DNA of 33,866 bases from a virus: IMG/VR virus record IMGVR_UViG_3300007276_000153, positions 1 to 33,866 of that record. One strand, 5' to 3'. Numbering within the stretch: the first letter of the stretch is position 1; each line of letters begins with the position of its first letter. Shown in pieces: positions 1-33,866 of the stretch. The notes below the pieces were generated by a model. It was not told the origin of the DNA. It was given only the letters and a program-made list of their open reading frames with translations, and did no database searches. The position numbers and the translations under genes were made by a program.

Positions 1-1
1 A

Positions 2-1243
2 ATATCCAATGCACAGCTTAAGCTAGGGAACAGTACTCAGGAAGAGACTGAGAGAGGACTCCAATTAGAGGCCAGCTTACTAGATGCAGAGACAGCTTCC
101 TTAAAGCTCAGGAAGGGTATAGCTACAGAGCTTAACTCATTAAGAAAAATGGATGCAGCAGAGAATGCAAAAGTAATAGCTGCAAAAAAGAAGGAACAGG
201 AAGAGAAGGATAAGAGGGATGAGGCTGACCTTCTTAAAATAGAGGAGGCTAGACAAAAGGAGCTAGATGATACTGAAGCCTTTGAGAAGCTTAAGAAGGA
301 AATAGAAGACGAAAGGAGACTAGCAGATGCTGAGTCTGAACAGGAGAGAGAGGAGATAGCCCTAGAGCTCCAGTTAGAAAAAGACATAGCAGAGCTAGAG
401 AAAATTACTGCAGATGCTGAGGAGAGAAATGCCCTCAAGCTTATGCTGGAGGAGAACTATCAGGATGCTTTATTAGAGCTTCAGATAGCTAAGCAGAAGG
501 CTGGAGATGATGCTGTGGCTAAGGCCTTTGATGCAGAGCTTAAGAAAAAGAATAAACATGAGGGAGAGGTATTTAATATAGCTAATGCATTTGCTCAGAA
601 GACACTAGGACTTTTAGGAGATTCCTTATTCGCTAGGATAGCTGGTGTAGGAGTGGAGGCAGCTCTTAAAATAGCTCAGGTTAAGATGAGTGAGAAGCAG
701 GCTAATGCTGAGGTAGCAAGCTCTACCAATATTGCTATAGCAAAAGCCATAGCAGCCAGTCCATTAACACTAGGCCAGCCACTAGCTGGAGTATTATTGG
801 CAGCAGGAGCTGCTGCTACTGGAGGTAATATAGCTTCCAGTAAGATAGCCACTCAGAGTATATTAAAGAATGCTGCTATAGGAGCAGCAGGAGCAGGAGT
901 GTCCTCTATTAAGTTTGCAGATGGTGGTATTTTATCTGGTGCCAGCCATGCAGCTGGAGGCATTCCTACACCTTATGGAGAACTAGAGGGAGGAGAGGCC
1001 ATTATTAATACTAGAAGCACTGCATTATTTGCTCCACTCCTGTCTGCTATTAACGAAGCTGGAGGAGGTAAGAAGTTTGCAGATGGTGGTATATTAGGCA
1101 GCGAAATGGCAGGAGCTGGAGGATTAGACTATGATAGGATAGCTGAGGCAATGGCTGCCCTACCAGCTCCTAGAGTGGCTGTGGATGAGATAGCTGAAGT
1201 AAGCAATAGAGTGAGTATTATAGAGAGCCAAGCTACTACCTAG
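2..1243 (+). CDS. Tail tape measure protein, C-terminal part (5' end outside window)
   Basis: The frame is open from the first bases and the gene's start lies upstream of the window. The first half is charged and Glu/Lys/Ala-rich, typical of a long coiled coil. A hydrophobic Ala/Gly-rich stretch follows (about 600-870), and then a Gly-rich tail with two KFADGGIL copies and the motif ELEGGEAIIN. That tail is characteristic of tape measure proteins in Bacteroidetes phages. Such proteins set tail length and are expelled during DNA entry. The gene ends in two consecutive TAG codons just before a terminator. A tail gene also runs off the right end of the window, so the two ends probably belong to one tail module. 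The family is fairly sure; the total length cannot be known from here. Confidence 0.85.
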   Translation: MSNAQLKLGNSTQEETERGLQLEASLLDAETASLKLRKGIATELNSLRKMDAAENAKVIAAKKKEQEEKDKRDEADLLKIEEARQKELDDTEAFEKLKKEIEDERRLADAESEQEREEIALELQLEKDIAELEKITADAEERNALKLMLEENYQDALLELQIAKQKAGDDAVAKAFDAELKKKNKHEGEVFNIANAFAQKTLGLLGDSLFARIAGVGVEAALKIAQVKMSEKQANAEVASSTNIAIAKAIAASPLTLGQPLAGVLLAAGAAATGGNIASSKIATQSILKNAAIGAAGAGVSSIKFADGGILSGASHAAGGIPTPYGELEGGEAIINTRSTALFAPLLSAINEAGGGKKFADGGILGSEMAGAGGLDYDRIAEAMAALPAPRVAVDEIAEVSNRVSIIESQATT

Positions 1244-1261
1244 TAGAAGGCTACATATTAT

Positions 1262-1292
1262 AGCAGGAGGCAACTAAGCTTCCTGCTTTTTT
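1262..1292 (+). terminator. Rho-independent terminator after tape measure gene
   Basis: The arms AGCAGGA and TCCTGCT form a 7-bp stem, and the second arm runs into six T residues. It lies 18 bases after the tape measure stop and before a promoter-like sequence, so it separates the tail operon from the next unit. Confidence 0.85.
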
Positions 1293-1302
1293 GACCCTAA
1301 CC

Positions 1303-1333
1303 TTAGGATATATGATAATTTTTTGTATCTTTG
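1303..1333 (+). promoter_or_regulatory. Bacteroidota-type promoter (TTAG, 19 bases, TATCTTTG)
   Basis: TATCTTTG at 1326-1333 is an exact match to the Bacteroides -7 consensus TAnnTTTG. TTAG at 1303-1306 lies 19 bases upstream, where a TTTG-like -33 element is expected. The site sits between a terminator and the first gene of a run of small genes. The same -7 octamer and following bases recur at 3253. The start site is not proven but should be near 1338-1341. Confidence 0.7.
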
Positions 1334-1336
1334 TTT

Positions 1337-1379
1337 CAGTGGGAGAGAAAACCCCTCCCTATAAAACAGGCTAAAAGCC
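1337..1379 (+). promoter_or_regulatory. 5' leader with hairpin (GGGAG/CTCCC) and GCTAAAAG element
   Basis: The predicted transcript begins near GTGGGAG. GGGAG (1341-1345) can pair with CTCCC (1355-1359). A second small stem, GGC-TAAAA-GCC, lies at 1369-1379. GTGGGAG and GCTAAAAG both recur in the leader at 3261. It may stabilise the mRNA or serve as a protein-binding site; the function is inferred. Confidence 0.5.
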
Positions 1380-1395
1380 ACAATATCAGAGAGTT

Positions 1396-1656
1396 ATGAG
1401 TACAAAAGCACAAAAAAGAAGAGAGTTAAAAGGGATTAGAGCTATTATTGAGAGCAGAACCCACTTCCAGTTAGGCCACTATACTGAGATGTATCAGAGC
1501 ATAGAGGCGAAAAAAGACAGTATTAGAATTACTGAGGATTCAGATAGATTATACCATGCCTTAGAGCTTTTAAGGTACTGTGATGACAGTATGAATGTAG
1601 CTCCTGAGATTAGAATGATTAATGGTAAGATGGTAATAGATATTAAAACTAGATAA
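1396..1656 (+). CDS. Hypothetical protein (86 aa)
   Basis: I do not recognise this family. The protein is basic at the N-terminus (KAQKRRELKG) and otherwise mixed charged, with no membrane segment. The ATG at 1396 is the first start after the leader and has no Shine-Dalgarno sequence. It heads a tight run of small genes (1396-3227) downstream of the 1326 promoter, a position typical of early phage genes that act on the host. It ends in TAA, two bases before the next ATG. Confidence 0.7.
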   Translation: MSTKAQKRRELKGIRAIIESRTHFQLGHYTEMYQSIEAKKDSIRITEDSDRLYHALELLRYCDDSMNVAPEIRMINGKMVIDIKTR

Positions 1657-1658
1657 TT

Positions 1659-2018
1659 ATGATACAAGTATTATTTTTTGCAGCCTCATGGATGAAAAGG
1701 TGGGGCTGCCACAGAACAGCTAGGAAGGTCTCTAAGGTTCAATGGTTCCTAGAAGACGTAGAAGAGAAGGGCTTTAAATTTATACTCCTTAGAACTATCT
1801 GGAGGATGCTAGAGAAGCTAGACTCTGGAGAGTGGGAGAGTGGAGAGACAGCTCCCTACTGTGGCCATGCGTACAGCAGGTATGAGAATAAGTATCTGGG
1901 TGCCTCATTCCATGAGGGAGATGGTGGTGGCAGTACTAAATTCTCAGTATTTGGATATAAATTATACTATGAGAACATAGAAGGAGAGCAGTATTTTATA
2001 CAACAAACAAACAAATAG
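1659..2018 (+). CDS. Hypothetical protein (119 aa)
   Basis: The family is not recognised. The N-terminal 40 residues mix hydrophobic and basic positions (FFAASWMKRWG), possibly a short amphipathic segment rather than a signal peptide. The C-terminal half contains a Gly-rich stretch (EGDGGGSTKFSVFGY) and many Tyr residues. The start is two bases after the preceding stop. An internal ATG (codon 12) is an alternative start. The gene ends in TAG, six bases before the next ATG. Confidence 0.65.
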   Translation: MIQVLFFAASWMKRWGCHRTARKVSKVQWFLEDVEEKGFKFILLRTIWRMLEKLDSGEWESGETAPYCGHAYSRYENKYLGASFHEGDGGGSTKFSVFGYKLYYENIEGEQYFIQQTNK

Positions 2019-2023
2019 AAATT

Positions 2024-2383
2024 ATGAACAGAGTAAAGATATTAGTAGATTCAAAAGGAATAGTAATAGGAGCAGACAGCAACGTAGGGAAACTCCCTCT
2101 TATGCCTATAAGCTATGAGGAGTACATAGAGAGCCTCCTAGAGGCTAATCAGGCTCATGCCTATATAGTAGAGGTCTGGAGGTATGATGAGCCTATAATG
2201 GCCTTTCATTCAGCTGTACCAGCTGTAAGAGTGTACTTTAATAATAAGGCTAAAATCACAGTAACAGTAGAAGCCTATGGAGGAGGAGAGTATAAGCTTA
2301 GTACCTACATAGATGGAGAGCACTCAGTTAATGAGGAGGCTACTCTAGAGGACGTTAATAATATTTTAAAACTATACATATAA
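2024..2383 (+). CDS. Hypothetical protein (119 aa)
   Basis: The protein is soluble and acidic, with no recognised family. Alternating hydrophobic stretches (AYIVEVWRYDEPIMAF, KITVTVEAYGGGEYKLSTY) suggest a small beta-rich fold. Its stop overlaps the next start in a TAATG junction, so the two genes are probably translationally coupled. Codon use matches its neighbours. Confidence 0.7.
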   Translation: MNRVKILVDSKGIVIGADSNVGKLPLMPISYEEYIESLLEANQAHAYIVEVWRYDEPIMAFHSAVPAVRVYFNNKAKITVTVEAYGGGEYKLSTYIDGEHSVNEEATLEDVNNILKLYI

Positions 2384-2598
2384 TGGACATAGATAACAAG
2401 CATACAAGAGCAGCTCTCCTGAGAGAGCTAAGGAATGTAAGGAATGAAATAGATATACTAGAGGCTAATATTAATAAGCCTATAGAGGAGAGAGATATAG
2501 ACGTCTGGAGCTTTAATATAGCTCTACACTTTCTAGCCCTCAACAGGGAGGAGATAATCGTAGAAGCTCTAACAGATAACAAACTATATAACTACTAA
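2383..2598 (+). CDS. Hypothetical protein (71 aa)
   Basis: This is a short, charged, mostly helical-looking protein (RAALLRELRNVRNEIDILEA) with heptad-like leucine/isoleucine spacing in the first 35 residues, so a small coiled coil is possible. It starts at a TAATG overlap with the upstream gene and is followed one base later by the next ATG. The family is unknown. The reverse-strand reading frame over it is treated as a shadow because the + strand fits the operon. Confidence 0.65.
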   Translation: MDIDNKHTRAALLRELRNVRNEIDILEANINKPIEERDIDVWSFNIALHFLALNREEIIVEALTDNKLYNY

Positions 2599-2599
2599 T

Positions 2600-2794
2600 A
2601 TGATACTATACAAGATAGAGCACAGTGACTCCAATCATACCACAGCTTTTTATGACAGGAGCATAAGGATGTGGACACTGCAAGAGTTTTACCTAGAGGA
2701 TGGATTACAAAAAGAGTTCCCTACTCAATACTACCACAGTAAGGAGGAGATGTTAAAAGACAATATTAACCTTAAAGACGCATTACAGCTATGA
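2600..2794 (+). CDS. Hypothetical protein (64 aa)
   Basis: A small soluble protein rich in aromatic residues and His, with no recognisable motif. It sits one base after the preceding stop and overlaps the next start by four bases (ATGA). Spacing and codon use support it as a real gene; no function can be assigned. Confidence 0.6.
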   Translation: MILYKIEHSDSNHTTAFYDRSIRMWTLQEFYLEDGLQKEFPTQYYHSKEEMLKDNINLKDALQL

Positions 2795-2958
2795 ACCAGA
2801 ACGAAATGATAGCACTGCTCCAGATTTACATTCATGTGATGACTGGCCAGCAGGTAAATATAACTCCCAGAATGGGAGAGGCAGGAGCTCTATTAGCAGC
2901 CTATACAGTGGCAGCTAAATGGTACTCAGATAATAATATTAAAATAACCCAGATATGA
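2791..2958 (+). CDS. Hypothetical small protein (55 aa)
   Basis: A small gene starting in an ATGA overlap with the upstream stop (ATG 2791) and ending in another ATGA overlap with the next gene (stop 2956-2958). The protein begins MNQNEMIALLQIYI and has a helical, Ala-rich middle (GEAGALLAAYTVAAKWY). It fills what would otherwise be a 160-base gap, and the two overlaps are strong support. No family is recognised. Confidence 0.6.
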   Translation: MNQNEMIALLQIYIHVMTGQQVNITPRMGEAGALLAAYTVAAKWYSDNNIKITQI

Positions 2959-3227
2959 ATGTAAAAGAATGGATTAAGCTAGGAGTAGCTAAGCACAAAG
3001 ACTATGGCCTAGTACAGGTATTAGGAGCTAAGCTAGGAGCCAAGAGTATGGTAGATATTAAATGTATCCAGAGAGGCAAAGGCTGGAATGAAGAGCTGGA
3101 GAGGTATGAGATATATAGAGAGACTACTCAGTGGAGCCCTGAGGGTAGAACCATTAAGAGAGGGTTCACTCAGAGAGATGAGTATGGTACCTTAGATACT
3201 GTGAACATTAAAGATTTAAGCAGATAA
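2955..3227 (+). CDS. Hypothetical protein (90 aa)
   Basis: The protein is basic and beta-looking (YGLVQVLGAKLGAKSMVDIKC, then repeated polar/aromatic strands). It is the last gene of the first small-gene unit. It ends TAA with an overlapping TAG two codon positions on, and a second promoter follows within 30 bases. The family is not recognised. There is no membrane segment. Confidence 0.65.
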   Translation: MNVKEWIKLGVAKHKDYGLVQVLGAKLGAKSMVDIKCIQRGKGWNEELERYEIYRETTQWSPEGRTIKRGFTQRDEYGTLDTVNIKDLSR

Positions 3228-3252
3228 TAGTAGGAAAATCCAATTAAAATGT

Positions 3253-3260
3253 TATCTTTG
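3253..3260 (+). promoter_or_regulatory. Second Bacteroidota-type promoter (TATCTTTG)
   Basis: The -7 octamer TATCTTTG is identical to the one at 1326-1333 and is followed by TTT and then GTGGGAG, as in the first leader. No good -33 TTTG is visible, only TAG-type sequence around 3230. It lies between the stop at 3227 and the start at 3307. Confidence 0.6.
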
Positions 3261-3290
3261 TTTGGTGGGAGGGATACTCCTCCTGCCAAA
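3261..3290 (+). promoter_or_regulatory. Strong 12-bp leader hairpin next to promoter
   Basis: The arms 3261-3272 (TTTGGTGGGAGG) and 3279-3290 (CCTCCTGCCAAA) pair over 12 positions, including two G-T wobbles, with a six-base loop. There is no T tract, so it is not a terminator. It is followed by GCTAAAAG (3295-3302), which is shared with the leader at 1370-1377. It probably caps the mRNA, or the DNA inverted repeat binds a regulator. Confidence 0.55.
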
Positions 3291-3306
3291 TATAAGCTAA
3301 AAGACT

Positions 3307-3543
3307 ATGACACAGCCAGTTAACCTAATTTACAATGAGACGAAAAAGAGAAAAGCTACTCCTAATGAGATAGCCAAGTATTTAATTATGGACAAATTTG
3401 ACCAGTTATGTGACAACTTAGGAGAGCAGTTCGGAACTGAGCACCTGAATGAAGACCAACTTAGTGAGGTAATGAGACACATAGAGAAGCATGAGATGGC
3501 ACTTATTAAGAAATTTAATTTAGACTATATAATACTTAAATAG
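3307..3543 (+). CDS. Hypothetical protein (78 aa)
   Basis: First gene behind the second promoter-leader. It is a small charged protein with helical character (GEQFGTEHLNEDQLSEVMRH). No family is recognised. It ends in TAG directly abutting the next ATG (TAGATG), so the ribosome could re-initiate at once. Confidence 0.65.
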   Translation: MTQPVNLIYNETKKRKATPNEIAKYLIMDKFDQLCDNLGEQFGTEHLNEDQLSEVMRHIEKHEMALIKKFNLDYIILK

Positions 3544-3918
3544 ATGAGACGAACTAAAGCAGCAATTCAGCACGCAGAGTATGTAAAGGATGTATTAGAT
3601 TACAAATACTTTATTTTTGATTTTGAGACTCAGAGATTCGCTACAGGATATGAGTCTAAGGAGGATGCTAAGGAAGTCCTAGAGGACTATAGCTATGCAG
3701 AGATTAATACATATAAGCAGGCAGCTTTAAGAGGCAGAGGAGATGCCTTAGCTATGTTTATTTCAAAGTGTATAGATTTCAGACCTGTGCAACTTAAGGG
3801 AGGTATGATGGTACAAGCCAAATGTGAGCACATGAACGCTGAGAATAGAAACACCGTATATGTTCAGATAGGTACCTCTCACTGGTATGAAGAGAAGAGT
3901 AATATTATTAAAAAATAG
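3544..3918 (+). CDS. Hypothetical protein (124 aa)
   Basis: A soluble protein with an N-terminal segment YFIFDFETQRFATGYESKEDA. The phrase 'FDFET' recalls exonuclease DEDD motifs, but the protein is too short and lacks the other acidic motifs, so I do not call it a nuclease. The C-terminus is basic. The start abuts the upstream stop and the stop TAG lies four bases before the next ATG. Confidence 0.65.
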   Translation: MRRTKAAIQHAEYVKDVLDYKYFIFDFETQRFATGYESKEDAKEVLEDYSYAEINTYKQAALRGRGDALAMFISKCIDFRPVQLKGGMMVQAKCEHMNAENRNTVYVQIGTSHWYEEKSNIIKK

Positions 3919-3922
3919 AGAT

Positions 3923-4339
3923 ATGGCAGATAAGTATAATTACCTAGTAAACTCGGAGACTGTAGAGGTCTCTGAGTTCAGTGACATAGATATGGTAGGA
4001 ACCATTACTAAAGGAGAGGATGTATTAATGATATATCCATATAGCTTAGACTACCTCCTGTGGGATGGCCACTGTAAGGCTACTACTATGATAGAGATAA
4101 TTAAGCTGGCACAGCATATTCAGTTGAAGTGGCTAGCAGAGAATGACTCTAATACTATTACTAAAGGCTTCAGGAAGCTCATAAGACAGGCTCACTGGAA
4201 TTTAAAGTATAGCCTTAACCCTGCAGATATTAAGCAGTACAGAGCAGATATGGAGTCCCTGCAGGTATATATAGATAAGTATAATGAGGAGATTCAAGAG
4301 GAGCTCCATGCTATCTATAAATCGTATAAAGAATTTTAA
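3923..4339 (+). CDS. Hypothetical protein (138 aa)
   Basis: I chose the ATG at 3923 (MADKYNYLVN) rather than the in-frame ATG at 3887, because 3887 would overlap the upstream gene by 32 bases and the 3923 site follows the common TAG-spaced-ATATG junction. The protein is helical, with a long C-terminal stretch (DIKQYRADMESLQVYIDKY) that could be a coiled coil. Family unknown. Confidence 0.65.
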   Translation: MADKYNYLVNSETVEVSEFSDIDMVGTITKGEDVLMIYPYSLDYLLWDGHCKATTMIEIIKLAQHIQLKWLAENDSNTITKGFRKLIRQAHWNLKYSLNPADIKQYRADMESLQVYIDKYNEEIQEELHAIYKSYKEF

Positions 4340-4364
4340 TTTTAACCCTTAAATATTTTAAATT

Positions 4365-4823: not shown

Positions 4824-4825
4824 AT

Positions 4826-4912
4826 ATGACTGAGACTGAAGTAGGTGTACTTATAATATGCTTCTACATAGGAGCTATGATAGTACTTAGAATAATAGTA
4901 GGAGATGATTAA
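4826..4912 (+). CDS. Small membrane protein (28 aa)
   Basis: ATG at 4826, in a TAGATATG junction with the previous gene, opens a 28-residue protein that is almost one hydrophobic segment (VGVLIICFYIGAMIVLRIIV). It ends TAA just before a terminator. A single-span membrane peptide is likely; its role is unknown. Confidence 0.5.
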   Translation: MTETEVGVLIICFYIGAMIVLRIIVGDD

Positions 4913-4919
4913 TTAATCA

Positions 4920-4939
4920 GGGAGCTTCGGCTCCCTTTT
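4920..4939 (+). terminator. Rho-independent terminator (GGGAGC-TTCG-GCTCCC-TTTT)
   Basis: A perfect 6-bp stem closed by a TTCG tetraloop and followed by TTTT. It ends the unit that begins at the 3253 promoter. Confidence 0.9.
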
Positions 4940-4951
4940 AAAACTTGAATT

Positions 4952-6257: not shown

Positions 6258-6262
6258 ATTGC

Positions 6263-6935: not shown

Positions 6936-7152
6936 GGAGGATTACATATTAAAGATTCGGCTATTCTTAGAGAGACACGCTGGAGAGAATACAGTAGTAG
7001 GAGATACCTGTAATGAGGTACTAGAGGACACCTGTGCTGGAGAGCTGGATATGCCTCACAAGTTAATAGACTATCTGGAGTACTTAGCTATACTAAAGCC
7101 AGAGTTTGAATATGGAGCAGCTAAAACCATAAAGCTTTTTAAGAATGATTAA
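6922..7152 (+). CDS. Hypothetical protein (76 aa)
   Basis: A small acidic protein with helical segments (DYILKIRLFLERHAGE, LIDYLEYLAILKPEFEY). It overlaps its upstream neighbour by 14 bases and the primase-helicase gene by 8 bases, so it is likely co-translated with the latter and may be a replication accessory. There is no motif to confirm that. Confidence 0.55.
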   Translation: MRQSREDYILKIRLFLERHAGENTVVGDTCNEVLEDTCAGELDMPHKLIDYLEYLAILKPEFEYGAAKTIKLFKND

Positions 7153-10100
7153 ACACCTCTCTGAGTGGATTCCTAAGATAGATTCTGTAGTACCTGTTAA
7201 GCAGGTTCCAGTAGGTAAAGAGCTTACATGGTTCAGCACGCTTAAGGGGCACCAGCAGGCTTCTAAGGATATATCTATAATAGAGCTGGTAGATATTATT
7301 AATGCCTTACCTAAGCCCAGTAAACACCCTACTGAGATGAGTAAGAAGGAGTATGGAGACTATAAGATAGGCCTCCCTGCTATTAAGACTGGTAGATATA
7401 ATGGTACTGGTAAGAAGGAAGTAGATAGAGTATATCTAGGAGACTATATTTTTTTTGATTTAGATGTTAAGCTTAGTAATGAGAACAGCCATATATATAA
7501 ATCACGCTCCAGCAATTCCAGAGTATTTCAGGTTCTGCAGGAGGTAGCAGTAGTAGCTTATAGGAGCCCTTCTCAGGTAGGTATGAGTGGAGTATTATAC
7601 TGCCCAGATATTAGTAAGTATCCTCCAGCAGCTCATAAGGCCATTACTAAATTAGTATATAGAGAGCTGGAGAAAATAATTAAAAGGGAGAGTGGTGTAA
7701 TGGTGGTTCTGGATGACGCTCAGAGTCCTTCTGTGCAGGGGAGATTTATAGCTCCAGCTTATACATTCCCAATAGAACTAAATAAAGCCCCTATAGCCTT
7801 CTATACCTCAGCTACTGAGGAGCAGAAGTTCCATGCTAATAAGACTCCTGTATATGTTAATCAGGGAACCTGTAGAGAAGGCTCTCTGGAGGATAGATAT
7901 AATAAAGATAATCCAGATATAGTAGGCCACTTAATAGCTGCAGGCTTCACTCCTACAGATACTAGGAGAGATGGCTATAAACACCCAGCCACTACCTCAG
8001 CAGACTCTGGGAATGTATCCTCCTGTGGAGGGTTCTTCTGGTGTAGTTCTGAGAGCTACTTAGCCCAGACTATATACAATGGGAGAACAGCTAAGCAATT
8101 ATTTCCCTTCCACTTAGCTTTAATCCAGAGTGGTAAGAGCTACTCAAATTTCTGTAAGTGGCTAGAGACTGAGAAGGGTTATGCATTAAAACCAGAGGAG
8201 AAAAAATCCAGAGTAGATACGGCAAAAGAATTAGTTAAGACAGCCCAGAGCTTCGAGGATATTTTTAAGCTATGTACTCCACTATTAAGTCTATCATTTA
8301 AAGAGAGACAGGAGTTCTTAGCCACAGCTAATATTCCTGCTTTTGACAGGTACAAGTATAAGGACTACCTTAAGCTTAAGAACCTTAAGATAAATTATGA
8401 TGAGACTTATGAGGTAAAGAACAGGCTCTCAGAGGTAAGTCCCCAGATTTTTGACCTAGCTGACAAACATAAAGAAATAGTTATAGCAGCAGATACTGGT
8501 ATAGGTAAGACCTATGCTGTAGTAAATGACTTCTCAAAATTAAGACCTAAGAAGAGGCTACTCTTTATAGCTCCCCTAGCCATTATTCCTAGACAGGTAG
8601 GTTTATCCTATGACCTAGTGGCACTATATGGCTCAGATGTAAAGCCTACTATATGGGATGCAGCTACCAGAGCAGATGTAGTACTGGCCACTCAGGAGAA
8701 AGCTGTAGAGCTTCTAGATAAAGGATATAAATTTGACTATATAGTACTGGATGAGATACACTCATTCATAGTGGGTAATGATTATAAGTCCAGTACCATA
8801 TCTAGGGTAATGGAGCTAGTAGAGGCTAGAGAGATTCCTGTGATAGGGTTAACTGGGACTCCAGTACAGCAGTTAAGGGAGCTAGGATTTAGGCTAATAC
8901 AGGTAGTAAAGGAGACTCCAGACAGGCAGGCTGTTACATTAAGGATGGATAACCAGAGCCAGATAGAGATAGTATTACAGCACCAGAAGAGTGTAAAGGG
9001 TAAGAGCCTTTATAGGCTCCAGAGCACTACTGATATTCAGCTACTTAAGGAGCAGTTTATTTCTCAGGGTTATCTGGAGGAAGAGGTGGAGATATATCAC
9101 AGTAGTAACGCTGTAAGAAAGGGAGCTGGCTATAATGCTGTATCTAATCAGGAGGTATTCCCTCACTCTGCTAAGATAGTCTTAACCACTTCATTTCTAG
9201 AGGAGGGTATTAATATAAAAAATCTAGGCTTCACAGATGTAGTGTATATGGATTCTAACTATTCTGGAATAGACCTCAGCTTGAAGCAGCTAGTAAATAG
9301 ATTTAGGACTGCAGACCCAGATAGACAGCTATTCTGGTATGCTAAGGTTAAGAATGACCAGAAGCCAAAGATGTTTAATGAGAATATAGTAGATGACTAT
9401 GAGAGACTAGAAAATGAAGAGGCAGAAGAGGATACCTTTGAGAGAGCTTCTTATAAGGCTTCAGCTTCTCTGGATAAGTTCTTCTACTCAGATGGTAGGG
9501 TAAATAGAGTGGCTTTAATTAATCACTATATTAAGAGATTTCACGCTACCTTTAATATGGATGAGCGTGTAGAATTTGTACAGGATAATTACTTTTTAGA
9601 TGTGACTATTGATAGTAGTTATGTACATACTATACAGGACATAGAAACTATCACAAATAGGAAGGATGCTCTTAAAGCTCTTAAGACTAATCTGTACTTA
9701 AATCACATGGAAGCTGTGCTAAATGCAGTGCTCCACTTCTCTGAGGATTTAGACTTAAAAGGATTAATAGCAGAGTGGCACCCTCAGGAGATGCTGGAGC
9801 CTAATGAGCAGGAATTTGTGCTTAAGAATATTAAGGCCTTTGAGAGAATGGCCTCTATGTATATGGATATAAAAGAGCATGGAGAGGAGCCTAATGATTA
9901 TATGTTAAATAAAGATGGAAGCCTGAGCCTTACCTCTCCAAAGTGGAGTATAAGGAAAGCTCTATTAAATGATGTAAAGCTTATCAGGAACCCTAAGAAT
10001 AAAAAGGATGAGAGACTGAGAATAAGAACCATAAAAGCTATAGAGGCTTTTGAGCTCTCAGGAGATTACACTCAGTGGAACTTATTAAAAACTTTTAAGA

Positions 10101-10321
10101 GTAATGGCTTTATGCCTGAAGGTATGGCCAGTACTAATAAAATAGTAAGACTGGTAGAGTACTTTACTGAGCTAGAGTATATATCTAATAGGAGTAGATT
10201 TGATGTAGTACCAGTAGAAGGATTTGATAAAGATTCCAGATTCGATATAGTACCAGTAGTAATAGTGGATAAGACACAAAAAATAGATAACCAATTAACG
10301 ATATTTGATATAGATGACTGA
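7145..10321 (+). CDS. Primase-like / SF2 helicase fusion protein (1058 aa)
   Basis: The N-terminal part (about 1-420) resembles BT4734/VirE-type N-terminal domains: IFFDLD near residue 102, a SPSQVGMSG loop, and Cys-containing segments (SSCGGFFWCSS). Such domains are linked to primase-polymerase proteins, so primer synthesis is an inference. The C-terminal part is a superfamily 2 helicase: Walker A ADTGIGKTY (about 448-456), DEIH (536-539), GLTGTP (motif III), TTSFLEEGINI (motif V) and QLVNRFR (about 715). A 300-residue C-terminal region is unassigned. It overlaps the next helicase gene by 8 bases. It is the likely core replication protein; no DNA polymerase is seen in the window, so the phage probably uses the host enzyme. 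Confidence 0.75.
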   Translation: MIKHLSEWIPKIDSVVPVKQVPVGKELTWFSTLKGHQQASKDISIIELVDIINALPKPSKHPTEMSKKEYGDYKIGLPAIKTGRYNGTGKKEVDRVYLGDYIFFDLDVKLSNENSHIYKSRSSNSRVFQVLQEVAVVAYRSPSQVGMSGVLYCPDISKYPPAAHKAITKLVYRELEKIIKRESGVMVVLDDAQSPSVQGRFIAPAYTFPIELNKAPIAFYTSATEEQKFHANKTPVYVNQGTCREGSLEDRYNKDNPDIVGHLIAAGFTPTDTRRDGYKHPATTSADSGNVSSCGGFFWCSSESYLAQTIYNGRTAKQLFPFHLALIQSGKSYSNFCKWLETEKGYALKPEEKKSRVDTAKELVKTAQSFEDIFKLCTPLLSLSFKERQEFLATANIPAFDRYKYKDYLKLKNLKINYDETYEVKNRLSEVSPQIFDLADKHKEIVIAADTGIGKTYAVVNDFSKLRPKKRLLFIAPLAIIPRQVGLSYDLVALYGSDVKPTIWDAATRADVVLATQEKAVELLDKGYKFDYIVLDEIHSFIVGNDYKSSTISRVMELVEAREIPVIGLTGTPVQQLRELGFRLIQVVKETPDRQAVTLRMDNQSQIEIVLQHQKSVKGKSLYRLQSTTDIQLLKEQFISQGYLEEEVEIYHSSNAVRKGAGYNAVSNQEVFPHSAKIVLTTSFLEEGINIKNLGFTDVVYMDSNYSGIDLSLKQLVNRFRTADPDRQLFWYAKVKNDQKPKMFNENIVDDYERLENEEAEEDTFERASYKASASLDKFFYSDGRVNRVALINHYIKRFHATFNMDERVEFVQDNYFLDVTIDSSYVHTIQDIETITNRKDALKALKTNLYLNHMEAVLNAVLHFSEDLDLKGLIAEWHPQEMLEPNEQEFVLKNIKAFERMASMYMDIKEHGEEPNDYMLNKDGSLSLTSPKWSIRKALLNDVKLIRNPKNKKDERLRIRTIKAIEAFELSGDYTQWNLLKTFKSNGFMPEGMASTNKIVRLVEYFTELEYISNRSRFDVVPVEGFDKDSRFDIVPVVIVDKTQKIDNQLTIFDIDD

Positions 10322-11537
10322 AGAAATAATACTAAGAGATTACCAGACTGAGATAGCTAATAAAGCTGTAGATAAGTTAAAGAGCTTATCTATAGTTTAC
10401 CTAGCACTGGAGGTAAGGGTAGGTAAGACCTTTACAGCCCTTGAGGCAGCTTATCTATATGGAGCTAAGAAAGTTCTATTCCTGACAGTAAAGAAGGCCA
10501 TAGGAGACATATCTGGAGACATAGATAAATTTGGGAAGCTGGATGTAGAGATACTATCTATAGACTCAGCTCATAAAGCCACAGGAGACTATGACTTAAT
10601 TATAGTAGATGAGGCTCATGGGCTGGGAGCATTCCCTAAGCCTAGTAATAGGGCTAAGAATGTTAAGAAGGTAGTAGGAAGCCTTCCAGTAATTTTGATG
10701 AGTGGAACACCCCACCCAGAGAGTATGAGCCAGCTCTTCCACCAGTTCTGGATAAGTGACCATAGTCCCTTCAGCAGCTACACTAATTTCTACAAGTTTG
10801 CTCATGAGTATGTAGATATAAAGCAGAGGGTATTCAATGGCAGGCCAGCTAATGACTATTCCAGAGGTAAGGAGGTAATGTTTACTCCTGTAGTAGATAC
10901 ATACTTCCTTAATTTCTCTCAGAAGCAGGCTAATTTCCACTGTGAAGTAGAAGAGCACATAATAGATGTTAAGATGCAGGAGGATACTATGAAAATGATA
11001 AGGAAAATAAAGAGAGATAAGGTACTTACTATGGATTCTGGAGTAATATTAGCAGAGACTCCAGTTAAAATGATGAGTAAATGCCACCAGTTAAGCTCTG
11101 GAACAGTGATTTTAGAGGAGACTGGCATGATTATTGTAGATAATACTAAGGCTAAGTATATAGAATGGTACTTTAAAGGTAAGAAAATAGCCATTTTTTA
11201 CAAGTATAAGGCTGAATTAGAGATGCTTAAGGCAATATATGGAGACAATATGACTGAGGATATAGTAGAATTTAATGAAACTGGTAAGAATATAGCCCTG
11301 CAGATACGCTCAGGAAGTATGGGAGTTAATTTATCTGCAGCAGATTGCCAAGTATTCCTTAATATAGACTTCAGCAGCAAGGATTATATCCAGAGTAGAG
11401 CTAGGCTCCAGACCCAGAAGAGGGAGAAGGTAGATGTTTACTTCTTATTTTCTGAGGGAGGCATAGAGAGAGATATATATAAGAGCCTTCAGAAGAAGGA
11501 GGACTATACGGCCAGATACTATAAGCAATATTTTTAG
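10314..11537 (+). CDS. SNF2-like superfamily 2 helicase (407 aa)
   Basis: ATP-dependent DNA translocase or helicase. Visible motifs: an early Q-like motif LRDYQ (7-11), Walker A VGKT (36-39), DEAH (99-102), SGTP (130-133), a motif V region MGVNLSAAD, and motif VI QSRAR (360-364) within QSRARLQTQKR. The length is compact and the protein is complete. It overlaps the primase-helicase by 8 bases, so the two are probably made together. DNA remodelling in replication or recombination is the likely task. Related phage genes sit beside VRR-NUC nucleases, as here. Confidence 0.85.
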   Translation: MTEEIILRDYQTEIANKAVDKLKSLSIVYLALEVRVGKTFTALEAAYLYGAKKVLFLTVKKAIGDISGDIDKFGKLDVEILSIDSAHKATGDYDLIIVDEAHGLGAFPKPSNRAKNVKKVVGSLPVILMSGTPHPESMSQLFHQFWISDHSPFSSYTNFYKFAHEYVDIKQRVFNGRPANDYSRGKEVMFTPVVDTYFLNFSQKQANFHCEVEEHIIDVKMQEDTMKMIRKIKRDKVLTMDSGVILAETPVKMMSKCHQLSSGTVILEETGMIIVDNTKAKYIEWYFKGKKIAIFYKYKAELEMLKAIYGDNMTEDIVEFNETGKNIALQIRSGSMGVNLSAADCQVFLNIDFSSKDYIQSRARLQTQKREKVDVYFLFSEGGIERDIYKSLQKKEDYTARYYKQYF

Positions 11538-11602: not shown

Positions 11603-11884
11603 ATGGCATTAACAGAAGCAAAGTACCAGAGTAAAATTATTAAAGCCTTAGAGGCTAAAAATTGGTTTTGCATTAAATTAATCAGTACTAATAAGAATGG
11701 CATACCAGATATACTGGCTCTGAAGAGAGATAGGAAGCCACTCTTTATAGAGGTAAAAGGAGAGAAGGGTAGGATAGCTCCTCTGCAGGAGTATAGAGCT
11801 AAGGAGGTAGCTTCATTAGGATTCCTTCATCACTTTGCAGTCTCTGGAGATGACTTCATAGATATTATATCAGAGAGATACTAG
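11603..11884 (+). CDS. VRR-NUC domain nuclease (93 aa)
   Basis: A single-domain PD-(D/E)xK nuclease of the VRR-NUC family. The catalytic pattern is visible: GIPD with P35-D36, then FIEVK with E50 and K52, followed by GRIAPLQ with Q62. An N-terminal helix (TEAKYQSKIIKAL) carries the usual early Glu. The length is typical of phage stand-alone VRR-NUC proteins, which are thought to cut branched or flap DNA during replication and packaging. The gene follows the two helicases. The start lies in a TAGATATG context and gives MALTEAKYQ, the expected family N-terminus. Confidence 0.9.
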   Translation: MALTEAKYQSKIIKALEAKNWFCIKLISTNKNGIPDILALKRDRKPLFIEVKGEKGRIAPLQEYRAKEVASLGFLHHFAVSGDDFIDIISERY

Positions 11885-15623: not shown

Positions 15624-16766
15624 ATGCTAGCTAAAATATATATAACTGGAGTGATAGGAGAGGATGTTTCATTACTAGACGTAATGAGACAGTATAAATC
15701 ATTTTCTAATCCTACCTCAGTGGAGGTAATAATAGACTCAGTAGGAGGCTCAGTAGATGTAGGCCAGAGTATATTCTCTTACTTAAGAAATTTACAAATA
15801 CCAGTTAAGACTTATGCCAAGAGAGCCTACTCCATAGCCTCAGTTATTTTTATGGCTGGAGATGAGAGAGAAGTAGAGCAAGGGCAGGAAAGATTAATGA
15901 TTCACTTTCCTTTTGTACAGAATGCCTCAGGAGGCTCTAAGGAGCTAGAGGATTTAACTAAGCAATTAAAAGCACTAGAGAGTGACTTCATAAAGTTCTA
16001 TGGAATTTACACTGGCATAGATGCTGACACTATAAAGACACTTTTAGAGAATGAGACTTTCCTATCTGGAGATGATGCATTCGATTTAGGATTTGCCACT
16101 ACAGTGAGTATTCCTCTAGCTGCAGTAGCTTATTATACACCAGAGGAGATTAATGATACAAAAACTAACAAAAATGTAATTATGAAGAACGCAGAAAAAT
16201 TAATTAAAGCTCTGCAGGTATTTGTCTCTCCTAAGGAGGTTCCTACTGAGATAGTAGCTTTAGTATTACAGGATGCTAATGGTATTGAGATTACCTTTCC
16301 AGCAGTAGCAGATGATGCTATGCCAGAGGTAGGAGATACAGCTACTGTAGATGGTGCCCCAGCAGAGGGAGAGTATGTAGCTCCAGATGGCTCTACATTC
16401 GTATTCTCTGGAGGAGAACTTACTGAAGTAAAACCAGCAGAAGAGCCAGCTCCTGAGACAGAAGAGGAAGCTGCAGCTAGAATAGCTAAAGAGGAAGAGG
16501 ATGCTAGATTAGCTTTAGAGAATGAGAACTCTGAAATTACTAAGCTATTAGAAACCCTTTTTAATAAGGCTACTTCTGAAGTAGAGGAGAAATTCAATAC
16601 AGCTCTTACTGCTTTGGCAGAAGAGAACAAAAAAGTAAACGATGAGCTTAAAGCTATGAGAGTCCTTTTAGGCTCTGCAGAAGTAAAAATAGAAGCTCAG
16701 GAAAAAGAGAATAGAGGAACAGCAGGAAGAAGTAAAGCTCTTGCAATTTTGAATAAACGTAAATAA
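15624..16766 (+). CDS. ClpP-like prohead protease fused to scaffold domain (380 aa)
   Basis: Residues 1-175 are an S14 (ClpP-type) serine protease: GGSVDVGQSI (41-50) for substrate binding, Ser70 in AYSIAS as nucleophile, His94 in LMIHFPF. The usual third acid maps to the ENETFLSG region, where a Glu stands in place of Asp, as often in phage homologues. From about 190 on the protein changes to an acidic, Glu/Ala-rich coiled-coil region (EEAAARIAKEEEDARLALEN) typical of a capsid scaffold. The fused enzyme probably organises the procapsid and then cuts the scaffold. The major capsid gene follows after 29 bases. Confidence 0.88.
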   Translation: MLAKIYITGVIGEDVSLLDVMRQYKSFSNPTSVEVIIDSVGGSVDVGQSIFSYLRNLQIPVKTYAKRAYSIASVIFMAGDEREVEQGQERLMIHFPFVQNASGGSKELEDLTKQLKALESDFIKFYGIYTGIDADTIKTLLENETFLSGDDAFDLGFATTVSIPLAAVAYYTPEEINDTKTNKNVIMKNAEKLIKALQVFVSPKEVPTEIVALVLQDANGIEITFPAVADDAMPEVGDTATVDGAPAEGEYVAPDGSTFVFSGGELTEVKPAEEPAPETEEEAAARIAKEEEDARLALENENSEITKLLETLFNKATSEVEEKFNTALTALAEENKKVNDELKAMRVLLGSAEVKIEAQEKENRGTAGRSKALAILNKRK

Positions 16767-18504: not shown

Positions 18505-18885
18505 ATGGCAAACTATAAGTTTAGATACCCTACAGCTCTTTACAAAACTGATGAAGGCTCTTACATTTCGCAGAAGACCCTCACAGATGAGATAGCTGAG
18601 AAATTCCTAGCAGAAGACCCTGAGAGAATAGCTCTATTCTCCTCCTATCCAGACTCGGTAGCTCCTCAGAGCGACGATATAGACACAGAGGTAATAGAAG
18701 ACACTGAGCCAGAGAACAGCGAAAATAAGCCACCCTGTACTCCATGTAAGAAAAAGAAAGAATTAATGGCAATTAACATGAATGAGCTCAGGGTTATGTA
18801 TCCTGACTTATCCACTCCAGTAGGAACTACTAAAGTGGACTTCGTTAATATGATAGTTAAATCAATTTTTAACACAGAAGACTAA
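18505..18885 (+). CDS. Head-associated protein with CxxC and SAP-like C-terminus (126 aa)
   Basis: Residues 1-50 form a small domain (FRYPTALYKTDEGSYISQKT). An acidic linker (SDDIDTEVIEDTEPENSE) and a PPCTPCKKKKEL motif follow. The C-terminal 35 residues (MNELRVMYPDLSTP, then TKVDFVNMIVKS) resemble small helix-extended-loop-helix or SAP domains that bind DNA. The protein may link capsid or portal to DNA. It overlaps the portal start in TAATG. The role is inferred. Confidence 0.55.
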   Translation: MANYKFRYPTALYKTDEGSYISQKTLTDEIAEKFLAEDPERIALFSSYPDSVAPQSDDIDTEVIEDTEPENSENKPPCTPCKKKKELMAINMNELRVMYPDLSTPVGTTKVDFVNMIVKSIFNTED

Positions 18886-19514
18886 TGAAATTAACTTATA
18901 ACCCTCATACAGACAGCCCTCTGGATATAAAGCCAGACAGGAGAACAGAGGTATTTAACTTTGGAGCAGATAATGCTTATCCTACCCTAGTAGAGACCCT
19001 TATTCAGGGCTCAGTCACAGCCAAAAACTGTGTAGGTAAGGTAGCAAAATCTATATACGGTAAAGGATTTGGAGAAGCTGGTAAGGTTAAAGTTAATAAA
19101 AGAGGCCAGAGCTTAAATGACTTTTTAAGAGTGGCAGGTAAAGAGCTAGCTACTCATAATAATCTATTTATCCATATAGGATATAATGGAGACCTCCAGA
19201 TAAACAGCCTAACTGTGATACCCACTACCTCCTGTAGAGTAGGTAAGGCAGATGACAAAGGCTACTCTGGTAAGATAGTAATTTATGATAACTGGGCTAA
19301 GGATGTTCAGCAGAGAGTACAGCCTGCTAAATTTGAGAGAGTAGATGTATATAACCCTAATAAGACTGTAATCCTTTCCCAGATAGAGAAGGCAGGAAGC
19401 CTTAAGCAGTATAAAGGGCAGATGCTCCATATTCAGGAGGCCACCAATGCTGTGTACAGCCTTAGTGACTTACACCCAGTACTAGAGGATGCTCTCCTAG
19501 AGAGTAGGGCTTAG
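18885..19514 (+). CDS. Portal protein, N-terminal part, ending at an in-frame TAG
   Basis: Residues 1-209 match the N-terminal half of a Bacteroidetes phage portal: FNFGADNAYPTLVETLI near the start and KNCVGKVAKSIYGKG after it. At codon 210 a TAG interrupts the frame within LLESRA-stop-SFRRRGADKG, and the same frame then continues uninterrupted to 20033. The full reading would be 382 residues, a normal portal size. As it stands the product would lack the C-terminal clip/wing and crown parts and would not be expected to work alone. Readthrough, a mutation in this genome, or a sequencing error are the options. Confidence 0.8.
   Translation: MKLTYNPHTDSPLDIKPDRRTEVFNFGADNAYPTLVETLIQGSVTAKNCVGKVAKSIYGKGFGEAGKVKVNKRGQSLNDFLRVAGKELATHNNLFIHIGYNGDLQINSLTVIPTTSCRVGKADDKGYSGKIVIYDNWAKDVQQRVQPAKFERVDVYNPNKTVILSQIEKAGSLKQYKGQMLHIQEATNAVYSLSDLHPVLEDALLESRA
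19512..19514 (+). other. In-frame TAG inside portal gene
   Basis: This single amber codon lies in otherwise continuous portal sequence. Downstream codons SFRRRGADKGFLNTK are conserved-looking and precede any possible restart, so they would be lost without readthrough. TAG is one base change from CAG, AAG, GAG, TTG or TGG. Confidence 0.85.
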
Positions 19515-19562: not shown

Positions 19563-20033
19563 ATGGTAGTAGCTCCTTTTGCCTCAGAAGAAGAGGAGGA
19601 TGACTTTAATGATGCTTTAAAGAGCCTACAGGGAGCAGAGAACTCAGGAGGAGTATTACTTCTGGAGGCTAGTAGCTTAGATGGAGATGTAAATACAGCA
19701 GTAAAGCTGGAGGACTTATCCTCAGCTTATAATGATACTATGTTCCAGTACTCAGAGGAACAGGCTAGGAAGAATATTTGTATAGCTTTTGAGGTGCCAC
19801 TTAATTTAGTGGATGCCACTGATTCTGGATTATTTGGAAACTCAGGAGAGCTCCTTACTTCCATGAAGCAAATACTCTGGGAGTCTCAGGAAGAGGTAAG
19901 AGATAGGCTAACAGAGACACTATCAGCTCTATTAAGTGACTCTTCAATAGTAGTAGAGGGAGAGCTAGAGATTATAGAGCCTTTTAAATTAGTAGAACCA
20001 GAACAAAAAATCCAGACAAATGAGCCTAGTTAG
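19563..20033 (+). CDS. Portal protein, C-terminal part (156 aa from internal ATG)
   Basis: This frame is the continuation of the portal gene; 19515-19562 also reads as portal sequence. The ATG at 19563 (MVVAPFASEEEEDD) is the only nearby start and has a poor context (AATACTAAGCTA upstream). Typical portal motifs are seen: SGGVLLLEASSL, ARKNICIAFEVPLNLV and GLFGNSGELLTSMKQILW. It overlaps the connector gene by 14 bases. A two-chain portal is theoretically possible but not known; I see this as the second half of one gene. Confidence 0.7.
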   Translation: MVVAPFASEEEEDDFNDALKSLQGAENSGGVLLLEASSLDGDVNTAVKLEDLSSAYNDTMFQYSEEQARKNICIAFEVPLNLVDATDSGLFGNSGELLTSMKQILWESQEEVRDRLTETLSALLSDSSIVVEGELEIIEPFKLVEPEQKIQTNEPS

Positions 20034-28884: not shown

Positions 28885-30105
28885 ATGGGACAATATAAAT
28901 ACAGCAGAGCCTTCTTTAAAATAGCTAAGATGAAGGCAGCCTTAAAGATAGTACAGGGAGGGAAGGGATGTAGTAAGACTATATCCATACTCCAGATATT
29001 TATAGCCCTAGCTATGAGTAAGAGGGAGAACCTAATTATTTCTGTAGTAGCTCAGTCCCTACCTAACCTTAAATCTGGTGCCCTTAGAGATTTTGAGAAA
29101 ATCCTAAAGGATATGCAGGTAATGGATAAATGGAAGGTTAATAAAACAGATAAGACTTATACCTTCGGAAGTAATATGGTAGAGTTCTTTAGTGTAGATG
29201 GAGAGAGCTCTAGGCTGGGTTCTAGGAGGACTCATTTATATGTGAATGAAGCAGATGGTATCAGGAGAGAGACCTTTGTGGAGCTCTGGAGTAGAACTTC
29301 TAGCTGGACTATAATAGATTATAATCCTAGGAGAGAGTTCTGGGCACATACTGACTTCATGGATGAGCCAGATGTAGAATTTATAAAGCTCAATTATTTA
29401 GATAATGAGTTCATTCCTAAGAAGGAACTAGATGCTATTATGATGTTCAAGAGAAAATATGAAGAGTCTGGCTCTAAGTACTGGGAGAACCAGTGGAGGG
29501 TATTAGGACTGGGAGAGCTAGGAGTGGTAGATGGTGTAATATTTGAAGAGGATAAGGACTATTTAGTTATAGATAAGATTCCTGAGGATGCAGAGTATAT
29601 AGGAGCTGGGCTAGATTTTGGATTTACCCACCCTACAACTATAATGAAGCTCTATAAGAGTGTAGATACTTTTGGAGAAGACCATGTAATAATACACCAG
29701 AGCTTATTCAAGGCTGGAATGTTTACTCCTCAGATAGCTATGCATATAAAGGGAGATGTAGATTTAATGAGCTCTATAATAGTGGCAGATTCTGCAAGGC
29801 CTGAAATGATTAGGGAAATGAGAGGAATGAATATTCCTATAGTAGCTCATAAGAAGGGTAATGTAATGGCTGGCATAGATTTAATGCATTCCATAAAAAT
29901 ATATATAACTGCTTCCAGTGAGGAAAGTATAGAGGAGTTTAGGAGCTATGCTTATGCCACTAACAGAGCAGGAGAAAACTTAGGAGTTCCTAATAAGGCT
30001 GCAGATGTAGATAATAGTATAGATGCTGCTAGGTATGGTATAGAGTACTTCCTTAGTAAGGGACGTAGTAGAACTAATAAATTAAGGTGGATAAGCTCAT
30101 GGTAG
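28885..30105 (+). CDS. Terminase large subunit (406 aa)
   Basis: DNA packaging ATPase and nuclease. The Walker A is QGGKGCSKT (24-32), with Ser before Lys as in many Bacteroidetes phage terminases. The Walker B region is THLYVNEAD (116-124) with Glu122. The nuclease domain shows Asp244 in GLDFGFTHP, Asp302 in VADSARPE and Asp374/376/380 in ADVDNSID. All expected acidic residues are present and the length is typical. The start is in a TAGATATG junction. It overlaps the next gene by seven bases. Confidence 0.95.
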   Translation: MGQYKYSRAFFKIAKMKAALKIVQGGKGCSKTISILQIFIALAMSKRENLIISVVAQSLPNLKSGALRDFEKILKDMQVMDKWKVNKTDKTYTFGSNMVEFFSVDGESSRLGSRRTHLYVNEADGIRRETFVELWSRTSSWTIIDYNPRREFWAHTDFMDEPDVEFIKLNYLDNEFIPKKELDAIMMFKRKYEESGSKYWENQWRVLGLGELGVVDGVIFEEDKDYLVIDKIPEDAEYIGAGLDFGFTHPTTIMKLYKSVDTFGEDHVIIHQSLFKAGMFTPQIAMHIKGDVDLMSSIIVADSARPEMIREMRGMNIPIVAHKKGNVMAGIDLMHSIKIYITASSEESIEEFRSYAYATNRAGENLGVPNKAADVDNSIDAARYGIEYFLSKGRSRTNKLRWISSW

Positions 30106-31539: not shown

Positions 31540-31545
31540 AATATT

Positions 31546-32649
31546 ATGGCATTCACATTCACAAAAGAACCTACAGGAATTTATCCAGTATATAATGACA
31601 GCTTCTTAGAATTTAGCTCAAATTTAGCAGCTAATGTAGAGGGACATATAGACGTAGCAGAGCTAGGAGGAGATACATTTACAGTTAATCCAGATGCTTC
31701 TGGGAAGTACTTATTTAATCTGAAGGAAATAGCCAAGAGCTTAATTAACTCAGATGGATTTAGAGACCCAGATGACAGCTTCCCTGCAGGCTGGGGAGCT
31801 TCATATCTTTACGGATACCAAGAGCTTAACCTTACAGTAAGAGCTACAGATGCTGGAGCTGGTTCTGACAGTACCTCTAAGACCTACTACTTTATTAGAG
31901 GAGCTAAGCAAATTGGAGAGGTAATATTTGTTAATCCAGCACAGCTACTTAACTACTCAGATGGTGGTGTAAACTATAGACTAACATACTGGGAGGGATA
32001 CCCTTTTAGCTTTGAGCTCCAGAGATTAACTGCTGCAGACTCTCTCACTATTAAGAATGTTAATACAGGCCTCACAGGTACAGCTCTGGTAGCTCCTTCT
32101 ACAGGAACCTATAGAGTACATATAGATAAGGTGGCTGCTAACTGGAGCTCTGCTGCCTACCTAGCCCTTCCAGATAATGAGAGCCTATTAGAGCTCAGTG
32201 TAAATGCAATATTAAAAACTAATCTATTCCTTAAGAAGGTAGTACAGAATAGAGGAGTCTATCTTAAGTGGTTCAATGCAGATGGTGGCTACTCTTACTT
32301 TTTATTTGAGCACTTTTATAGAGAAGAGGTAAGGAGCAGGAGTATAGGGACTGTAAATAGCAATAGCTTTGAGAATGTAGGTAGTGCTGTGGCACCTAGC
32401 AGGTCTCTAGGGAAGTCTGGGGAGGTCTCATATACATTAAAAGCCACTGTGGATGACAATGAAGTAAATATAATAAGAAGCCTCTTTACTAGCCCCTCAG
32501 TCCAGATGTGGAGTAAAACGGAGCCTATGCTATTAGGAGAGTTTATAGACGTAGATATAAGCTCCAGCTTCAGCGTGGTTAATAAAAAGAATAAGAATGA
32601 TGTAAGAGTAAAAATTACTCTTCCTGAATTAATTACACCTATACTATAA
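31546..32649 (+). CDS. Tail/baseplate structural protein (367 aa)
   Basis: A beta-rich protein with no membrane segment. The N-terminus FTFTKEPTGIYPVYNDSFLE and a pattern of alternating strands and Gly/Asp turns suit a tail-tip or baseplate protein of Bacteroidetes phages. The gene starts after an A-rich spacer and overlaps the next tail gene in TAATG. It may form part of the distal tail that surrounds the tape measure. No specific family is claimed. Confidence 0.6.
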   Translation: MAFTFTKEPTGIYPVYNDSFLEFSSNLAANVEGHIDVAELGGDTFTVNPDASGKYLFNLKEIAKSLINSDGFRDPDDSFPAGWGASYLYGYQELNLTVRATDAGAGSDSTSKTYYFIRGAKQIGEVIFVNPAQLLNYSDGGVNYRLTYWEGYPFSFELQRLTAADSLTIKNVNTGLTGTALVAPSTGTYRVHIDKVAANWSSAAYLALPDNESLLELSVNAILKTNLFLKKVVQNRGVYLKWFNADGGYSYFLFEHFYREEVRSRSIGTVNSNSFENVGSAVAPSRSLGKSGEVSYTLKATVDDNEVNIIRSLFTSPSVQMWSKTEPMLLGEFIDVDISSSFSVVNKKNKNDVRVKITLPELITPIL

Positions 32650-33866
32650 TGACTGAGAGACTAATAATAACTACAGCAGGGAGCTCTCCTATAGAGCTAG
32701 ACTTATATCCTAAGACTAAGGTAGCTATGACTTTTAGCCTTAATGATATTAGTGATATTTCTAACAGGAATAGCACATACTCTAATACTATTAAGATACC
32801 TAAAACTGGTAATAATATAGCAGCCTTTAAGAACTTAGGGACTATAGGAGAAGCTAATGGATTAGCTTATACTCAGGTTCCCTGTGATTACTACATAGGC
32901 TATACCCTTATTATTTCTGGAGGGTTCCTTCAGATAATGGGCTATGATGATAAAAACTATAATTGTGCCTTATTTAATGGTATCCTCTCTCTGGAGCAGA
33001 TACTAGGAGGCCAGAAGCTTATAGATTTAGATAACTCTAATTTAACACATACTAGAAGTATTACCACTGTAAGAAGTAATAGGCAGAATACAGAGAACTT
33101 TACTTATCCTCTCTACTCTCCTAGTGCCTCTACTACTATTAGATGGCCACTAAGCCCTCCTACTTACTGGCACGTCACAGATGCCCAGCCTGTACTATTT
33201 GTACATACCCTGCTGACTAGGATTATTTCTCAGGCAGGATATACTTATTCTGGAGATATTTTCTCAGATGCTGGATTCCTTAAGGAGGTAATTACCCTAA
33301 GGAGTGCCCAGACTATATATAGCAATGCAGACTTTTTTAATGGCTCTGCAGAGGATGAGATTATAATGCCAGATATAAGCCAGATTAATTTCCTTAAGGA
33401 TATACTCCAGAGATATGGACAGGTAGTAAGACTGCAGGATGGCCAGCTTCAATTCATTAACATAGACTCCCTAATAAGTGGAGATATAGGAGTTAATGAC
33501 TGGAGTGATAAATACGCTGGAAGTACACAGGTTAAATATGACAGCAAATATGCAGAGGACAATATATTTACATTCTCATACAGTAATGAGGATGACAATT
33601 ATTCTGCAGGAGATGGCTCTCTATTAGTAGCTAATACTAATCTACAGGCAGAGAAGACTCAGTATAATAGCCCTATGGACTGGCTAAGTAATAAAGTAGC
33701 TGTATTCTATGATAGAGCCTCAGTGGCAAAAACTGATATACACGAGATTCTTATGTATGATGAGGTAGAGGCTAAGCCTATAAGTATTACTCCAGCTCTA
33801 TATAAGGTAGAGTGGGCTCCTACTTATGCCTATATAGTATCTACTGAGACTAATACCAGCCCTACA
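32649..33866 (+). CDS. Distal tail/baseplate-like protein, 3' end outside window (at least 406 aa)
   Basis: The frame opens at ATG 32649 (TAATG overlap) and runs to the last base without a stop, so the C-terminus is missing. The start PIELDLYPKTKVAMTFSLND followed by NRNSTYSNTIKIPKTGNN is a pattern seen in tail proteins of Bacteroidetes phages and prophages. The rest is beta-rich with aromatic-Gly turns. The tape measure reads into the left end, so this gene and that one probably lie close together in the full genome. Confidence 0.7.
   Translation, partial: MTERLIITTAGSSPIELDLYPKTKVAMTFSLNDISDISNRNSTYSNTIKIPKTGNNIAAFKNLGTIGEANGLAYTQVPCDYYIGYTLIISGGFLQIMGYDDKNYNCALFNGILSLEQILGGQKLIDLDNSNLTHTRSITTVRSNRQNTENFTYPLYSPSASTTIRWPLSPPTYWHVTDAQPVLFVHTLLTRIISQAGYTYSGDIFSDAGFLKEVITLRSAQTIYSNADFFNGSAEDEIIMPDISQINFLKDILQRYGQVVRLQDGQLQFINIDSLISGDIGVNDWSDKYAGSTQVKYDSKYAEDNIFTFSYSNEDDNYSAGDGSLLVANTNLQAEKTQYNSPMDWLSNKVAVFYDRASVAKTDIHEILMYDEVEAKPISITPALYKVEWAPTYAYIVSTETNTSPT

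Follow-up and report, generated by a model that had tools for sequence, protein, structure and literature searches.

The 33,866 bases analysed here (positions 1 to 33,866 of the IMG/VR record IMGVR_UViG_3300007276_000153, hereafter "the window") contain no GATC at all, and this word is only one of a set of palindromes that are absent from the window, while related phages have been purged of sets of their own. The best explanation, which we consider likely to be correct, is that Type II restriction enzymes, met across a host range that changes, exert purifying selection against their sites, where we infer the host, the actual enzyme and cutting as the selective force. Phages are known to shed Type II sites as a strategy: Rusinov et al. 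(2018, PMC6286503) found the sites completely or almost completely eliminated in roughly 10% of viral genomes, more often in non-temperate phages, and the window is a further, strong example of such elimination. It resembles the dsDNA phages of that study in having near-zero site counts despite large expectations, at palindromic, Type II-like sites, but differs in that the host enzyme is deduced, and in less usual features: the number of specificities lost together, the relatives with differing sets, and the full purging in members that bear an integrase.

Loss of GATC and of other palindromes

The original prediction, made by eye, was that GATC is missing from the whole window, and an exact count gave the same answer (0 copies). 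Base composition predicts 114 copies and maximal-order Markov models predict 51 (one strand) or 80 (both strands), far from the observed value, and GATC is the most depleted 4-base word in the window. When synonymous codons were shuffled, 76.9 ± 6.8 copies were expected in the coding sequence (z = −11.3), with the lowest of 300 shuffles still containing 57. The loss was also predicted to be selective, in that GATA and GATG should not be equally depleted, and both words in fact exceed expectation when counted with their complements (TATC + GATA: 474 observed vs. 379 expected; CATC + GATG: 280 vs. 184). Two independent contigs, L001 and L002, which are 99.8% identical to the window over 12.5–12.7 kb, are likewise free of GATC, and in L001 this state holds across the ~1 kb that lies past the right end of the window. 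We regarded a site as eliminated when its observed/expected ratio was below 0.1 at an expectation of at least 15, when protein sequence and codon use could not explain the loss, and when the loss was word-specific. By count this applies to GATC (0 vs. 51–114) as well as to CCWGG, GGNCC and GTMKAC (0 vs. 21–26), while for GATC the synonymous shuffles and the codon choice at junctions exclude protein sequence and codon use as the cause, and the neighbours GATG/CATC and GATA/TATC are spared.

Every codon junction able to form GATC is emptied, and the loss is spread over all codon positions. Glycine follows the predicted pattern in full, as GGA is used in none of 36 codons before TC compared to 307 of 621 elsewhere. 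For aspartate, the prediction stood in that GAC is always chosen before C (42 GAC and 0 GAT, vs. 164 GAC and 473 GAT in other contexts); however, GAC is also favoured before T, and thus part of the trend is general and only the total absence of GAT before C is specific. The remaining junctions are equally empty, with no ATC among 135 isoleucine codons after G, no TCN among 15 serine codons after GA, and no AGA among five arginine codons before TC. Chance or codon bias as the cause of the absence was therefore rejected by the synonymous shuffles and the codon junctions, together with the palindrome panel described below.

The codons used instead are GAC before C, GGC or GGT before TC, and AGY after GA, and they bear on a mutational account in which cytosines methylated at GATC would have decayed by C-to-T change. 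A C5 methyltransferase does occur in a Sau3AI-type cassette within the family of Tenacibaculum soleae, the host of a related prophage (see below), but the replacement codons are not C-to-T products and the expected product AATC/GATT is not enriched in the overall counts (238 seen vs. 269 expected). On both grounds C-to-T decay was rejected, and we regard it as scarcely credible.

A strand-specific bias was seen in a neighbouring word, since CATC is scarce on the plus strand (6 seen vs. 18 expected) despite the two-strand excess of CATC + GATG noted above, and histidine before C is encoded by 23 CAC vs. one CAT. Because it is strand-specific, this bias is not a restriction signature.

While the predicted loss of GATC stood, the focus on this word alone did not, as GATC is just one of a set that had been missed. 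The test covered 67 palindromes that are free of CpG and have an expectation of five copies or more. Ten of them are absent, namely GATC, CCWGG, GGWCC, GGSCC, ACTAGT, CAATTG, CATATG, GAATTC, GATATC and GTATAC, compared to a mean of 0.01 and a maximum of one in synonymous shuffles. Counted as degenerate sites, GTMKAC (26 ± 5 expected), CCWGG (21 ± 4) and GGNCC (21 ± 5) all have zero copies, and GGTGA has one copy vs. 41 expected. Other sites are kept close to or above expectation (observed/expected), including the four-base GGCC (45/41), CATG (51/53) and GTAC (114/117) as well as CASTG (67/54). Composition does not explain this wider loss of Type II-like palindromes. CCGG, GCGC and other CpG words are also absent, yet were left out of the panel as CpG itself is suppressed in the window, to 0.13 of expectation.

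The CpG ratio covers a very wide range among relatives, from 0.04 in L009 to 2.1 in L038. With CA/TG at 0.91 the window shows no excess of this pair, and simple methyl-CpG decay therefore does not explain its low CpG.

Gene content of the window

The window is most of a tailed phage genome, yet an incomplete one (Table 1): both of its ends fall inside tail genes and contig L001 extends ~1 kb beyond the right end, so that a piece of the genome is missing. The terminase large subunit served as the marker for placing the phage and its relatives. No named phage gave a direct nucleotide match; the closest is Cellulophaga phage phi46:1 (NC_021800), whose terminase is 50% identical, and a prophage of T. 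soleae has a terminase that is 52% identical. The kinship with these two makes the host of the window, on sequence grounds, probably a member of the Flavobacteriaceae.

Table 1 Features of the window discussed in the text.
Feature	Position	Strand	Basis or remark
Whole window	1..33866	.	Without GATC, CCWGG, GGNCC and GTMKAC, both strands
Tape-measure-like tail protein, 3' part, open at left end of window	2..1243	+	Name inferred from gene order relative to phi46:1 gp21
Large protein with DEAD/ResIII helicase domain	7145..10321	+	Pfam ResIII 1.3e-10, DEAD 2.1e-10
SNF2/ResIII-type helicase	10314..11537	+	Gene order as in phi46:1
VRR-NUC nuclease	11603..11884	+	Pfam VRR_NUC 1e-06
Clp-protease-like protein	15624..16766	+	Pfam CLP_protease 2.6e-17
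Portal protein, N-terminal part, ORF broken by in-frame TAG	18885..19514	+	phrog_11226 portal 1.2e-48
Portal protein, C-terminal part	19563..20033	+	phrog_11226 portal 4.5e-16
Endolysin (phage lysozyme)	27912..28370	+	phrog_7 8.6e-48; Pfam Phage_lysozyme 2.8e-38
Terminase large subunit	28885..30105	+	Pfam Terminase_3 3.2e-08

The tape-measure-like protein has no Pfam match, and the putative gene of the capsid region (16796–17764) returned nothing when its protein was searched. The Clp-protease-like protein is probably the prohead protease, and the SNF2/ResIII-type helicase is the probable counterpart of phi46:1 gp34. Directly after the tape-measure-like gene come some 17 small genes in a row (1396–7152); of those tested, none has a clear Pfam match and hardly any matches PHROGs. 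At that place phi46:1 carries its integrase and early genes. The window itself yielded no integrase. The portal gene (18885–20033) is interrupted by an in-frame TAG that ends the first frame at 19514, and because the gene is unbroken in the near-identical contig L002, the TAG is a nonsense variant or consensus error of the window's record.

The gene content also speaks to the idea that the phage attacks host DNA with a GATC-cutting nuclease of its own and was forced to rid its genome of the site. The VRR-NUC protein and the two helicases with ResIII-type domains would be the natural candidates, but the larger helicase-domain protein has no PADLOC match and by this evidence is not a restriction enzyme, and phi46:1 has a VRR-NUC too. 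Among the predicted proteins, most of which match no family, neither a DpnII, a MutH/Sau3AI nor any other restriction nuclease domain was found, and profile searches of the same set recognised no GATC nuclease or adenine methyltransferase of the phage's own. A single nuclease would, moreover, not explain the loss of many unrelated sites, and we give this idea very little credence.

Related phages and their purged sets

We delimited a clade of loci with a terminase ~47% or more identical, several of which are fragments. GATC does not occur in ten of the clade's 17 lineages, vs. one of 39 more distant loci (Fisher p = 5e-6, although the test assumes independent lineages and these are not entirely so). 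The sites lost along with it differ between members. Like the window, phi46:1 has similar gene content and zero GATC, CCWGG and GGNCC; unlike the window, it also lacks CCGG, GGCC, CASTG and indeed all CCNGG, keeps GTMKAC, has integrase genes and has a CpG ratio of 1.67. The T. soleae prophage is without GATC, CATG and CASTG, while clade member L015 is without GCNGC and GGCC, AGCT is nearly lost in L018, and in L059 CGCG is gone and CATG and CTNAG are almost so. Prophage and host contrast directly in T. soleae, as 26.3 kb of prophage hold zero GATC against 57 expected and 40 kb of host chromosome hold 64.

Not every member is purged of GATC. L007, whose terminase is 63% identical, has 71 copies in 32.6 kb and lies near the GATC-free L003 on the terminase tree, on which the GATC-free state requires five changes, four of them forced by well-supported branches (where exactly the outgroup L050 belongs is uncertain). 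Inheritance alone is disfavoured, since zero GATC recurs in lineages with terminases only ~50–63% identical and the state has been gained or lost several times. The differing sets, the sites of L007 and the repeated changes on the tree therefore indicate that the GATC-free state is dynamic and maintained, and not one inherited accident.

Both phi46:1 and the T. soleae prophage bear an integrase and both are fully purged, in contrast to the rarity of elimination reported for temperate phages (PMC6286503), and such members would test this published view. The absent words can be read as a fingerprint of the restriction enzymes that a phage lineage has survived and, as the sets differ within the clade, the fingerprint could help to predict the hosts of uncultivated phages. 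A broader proposal, which we put forward tentatively and hold to be possible rather than probable, is that this clade of flavobacterial phages, some of them integrating, lives by continuous and reversible purging of site panels (about ten palindromes at once), such that the restriction systems of recently met hosts could be read off each genome.

Searches for methyltransferases in the clade records covered the two families D12 and N6_N4, and neither was found there or in the window. The Cellulophaga phages phi46:3 (L064), phi19:1 (L065) and phi10:1 (L066) have adenine-type methyltransferases of their own and carry GATC at ~32–62% of expectation. These three (with D12 or N6_N4) would fit a rule that methyltransferase-bearing phages keep GATC, but phi39:1, phi38:1 and clade member L007 keep GATC with neither type, phi39:1 at 91 sites in 28 kb, and no such rule is claimed.

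GATC enzymes in the probable host family

Likely hosts had been suggested as a place to look for DpnII- or Sau3AI-like systems, and such systems do occur there. In a survey of 299 genomes of the T. soleae family, Sau3AI-type enzymes were found in 12, DpnII-type enzymes in five and DpnI in two, and methyltransferases adjoin the Sau3AI- and DpnII-type examples that were checked; L070, for instance, has a cassette of a Dam-type methyltransferase, DpnII and a second methyltransferase. The T. soleae lysogen itself, the one sequenced lysogen among the relatives, has no DpnII, MutH/Sau3AI or D12 gene, and an attempt to link one of its enzymes to the lost sites of its prophage failed, as every recognised GATC enzyme family tested is missing.

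The same genomes bear on a proposal made for phiX174, namely that a phage loses GATC to evade mismatch repair directed by this site. phiX174 also has zero GATC, and its mutation rate falls when sites are restored (PMC5014478). phiX174 is, however, a phage of E. coli whose loss is tied to Dam/MutH repair, and T. soleae, the sole host relative tested, lacks the D12 and MutH genes that such an escape requires. The MutH-domain matches in the family are not MutH in length or architecture: they are open frames of 379–481 aa, most with two MutH-type stretches as in Sau3AI, and the example tested is a Sau3AI equivalog (550 bits vs. a cut-off of 300). As mismatch repair does not account for the other lost sites either, we regard it as a very improbable cause.

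Complementary restriction deserves somewhat more weight, though we still consider it unlikely as the main cause. DpnII or Sau3AI hosts cut unmethylated GATC and DpnI hosts cut adenine-methylated GATC, such that modification could not save a phage moving between them and only total loss, as observed, would work. In one genome of the family, L079, a DpnI gene adjoins a shortened D12 (Dam-type) methyltransferase (1270–2620, minus strand; profile positions 1–157 of 253), an arrangement that may reflect an ongoing change from GATC methylation to DpnI. Yet one of the two DpnI genes found is broken by stops, and the loss is equally full at other sites for which no modification-dependent partner is known. 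Complementary DpnI/DpnII restriction could nevertheless add to Type II selection.

Escape from a GATC-cutting restriction system, as originally proposed, thus remains the best reading, supported by the selective loss, the divergent relatives, the wider loss of Type II-like palindromes and the cutters in the probable host family, with the enzyme of the actual host deduced from these. A Flavobacteriaceae-like host population would repeatedly expose the phage to Type II restriction enzymes, and a GATC cutter of the Sau3AI or DpnII/MboI kind would destroy incoming unmethylated phage DNA that bears the site. Site-free variants would be selected, mostly via synonymous change, until zero sites are left, and site loss is the likely way out because the phage has no adenine methyltransferase of the two families tested. 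The same pressure from other enzymes would lead to the loss of CCWGG, GGNCC, GTMKAC and several 6-base palindromes. The purged set would track the hosts met by a lineage, with related phages differing in their sets, and GATC may return once the pressure is lifted. A counterpoint is that a recognised GATC cutter is present in only ~6% of the family genomes surveyed, apparently a small share for so many lineages to have reached zero sites, although strains differ and GATC may also be cut by enzymes of other families.

A further observation concerns the Sau3AI-type cassette with the C5 methyltransferase (L097), in which a 389-aa protein without a Pfam or NCBIfam match (6891–8060, plus strand) lies between the methyltransferase and the enzyme and overlaps the start of the latter.
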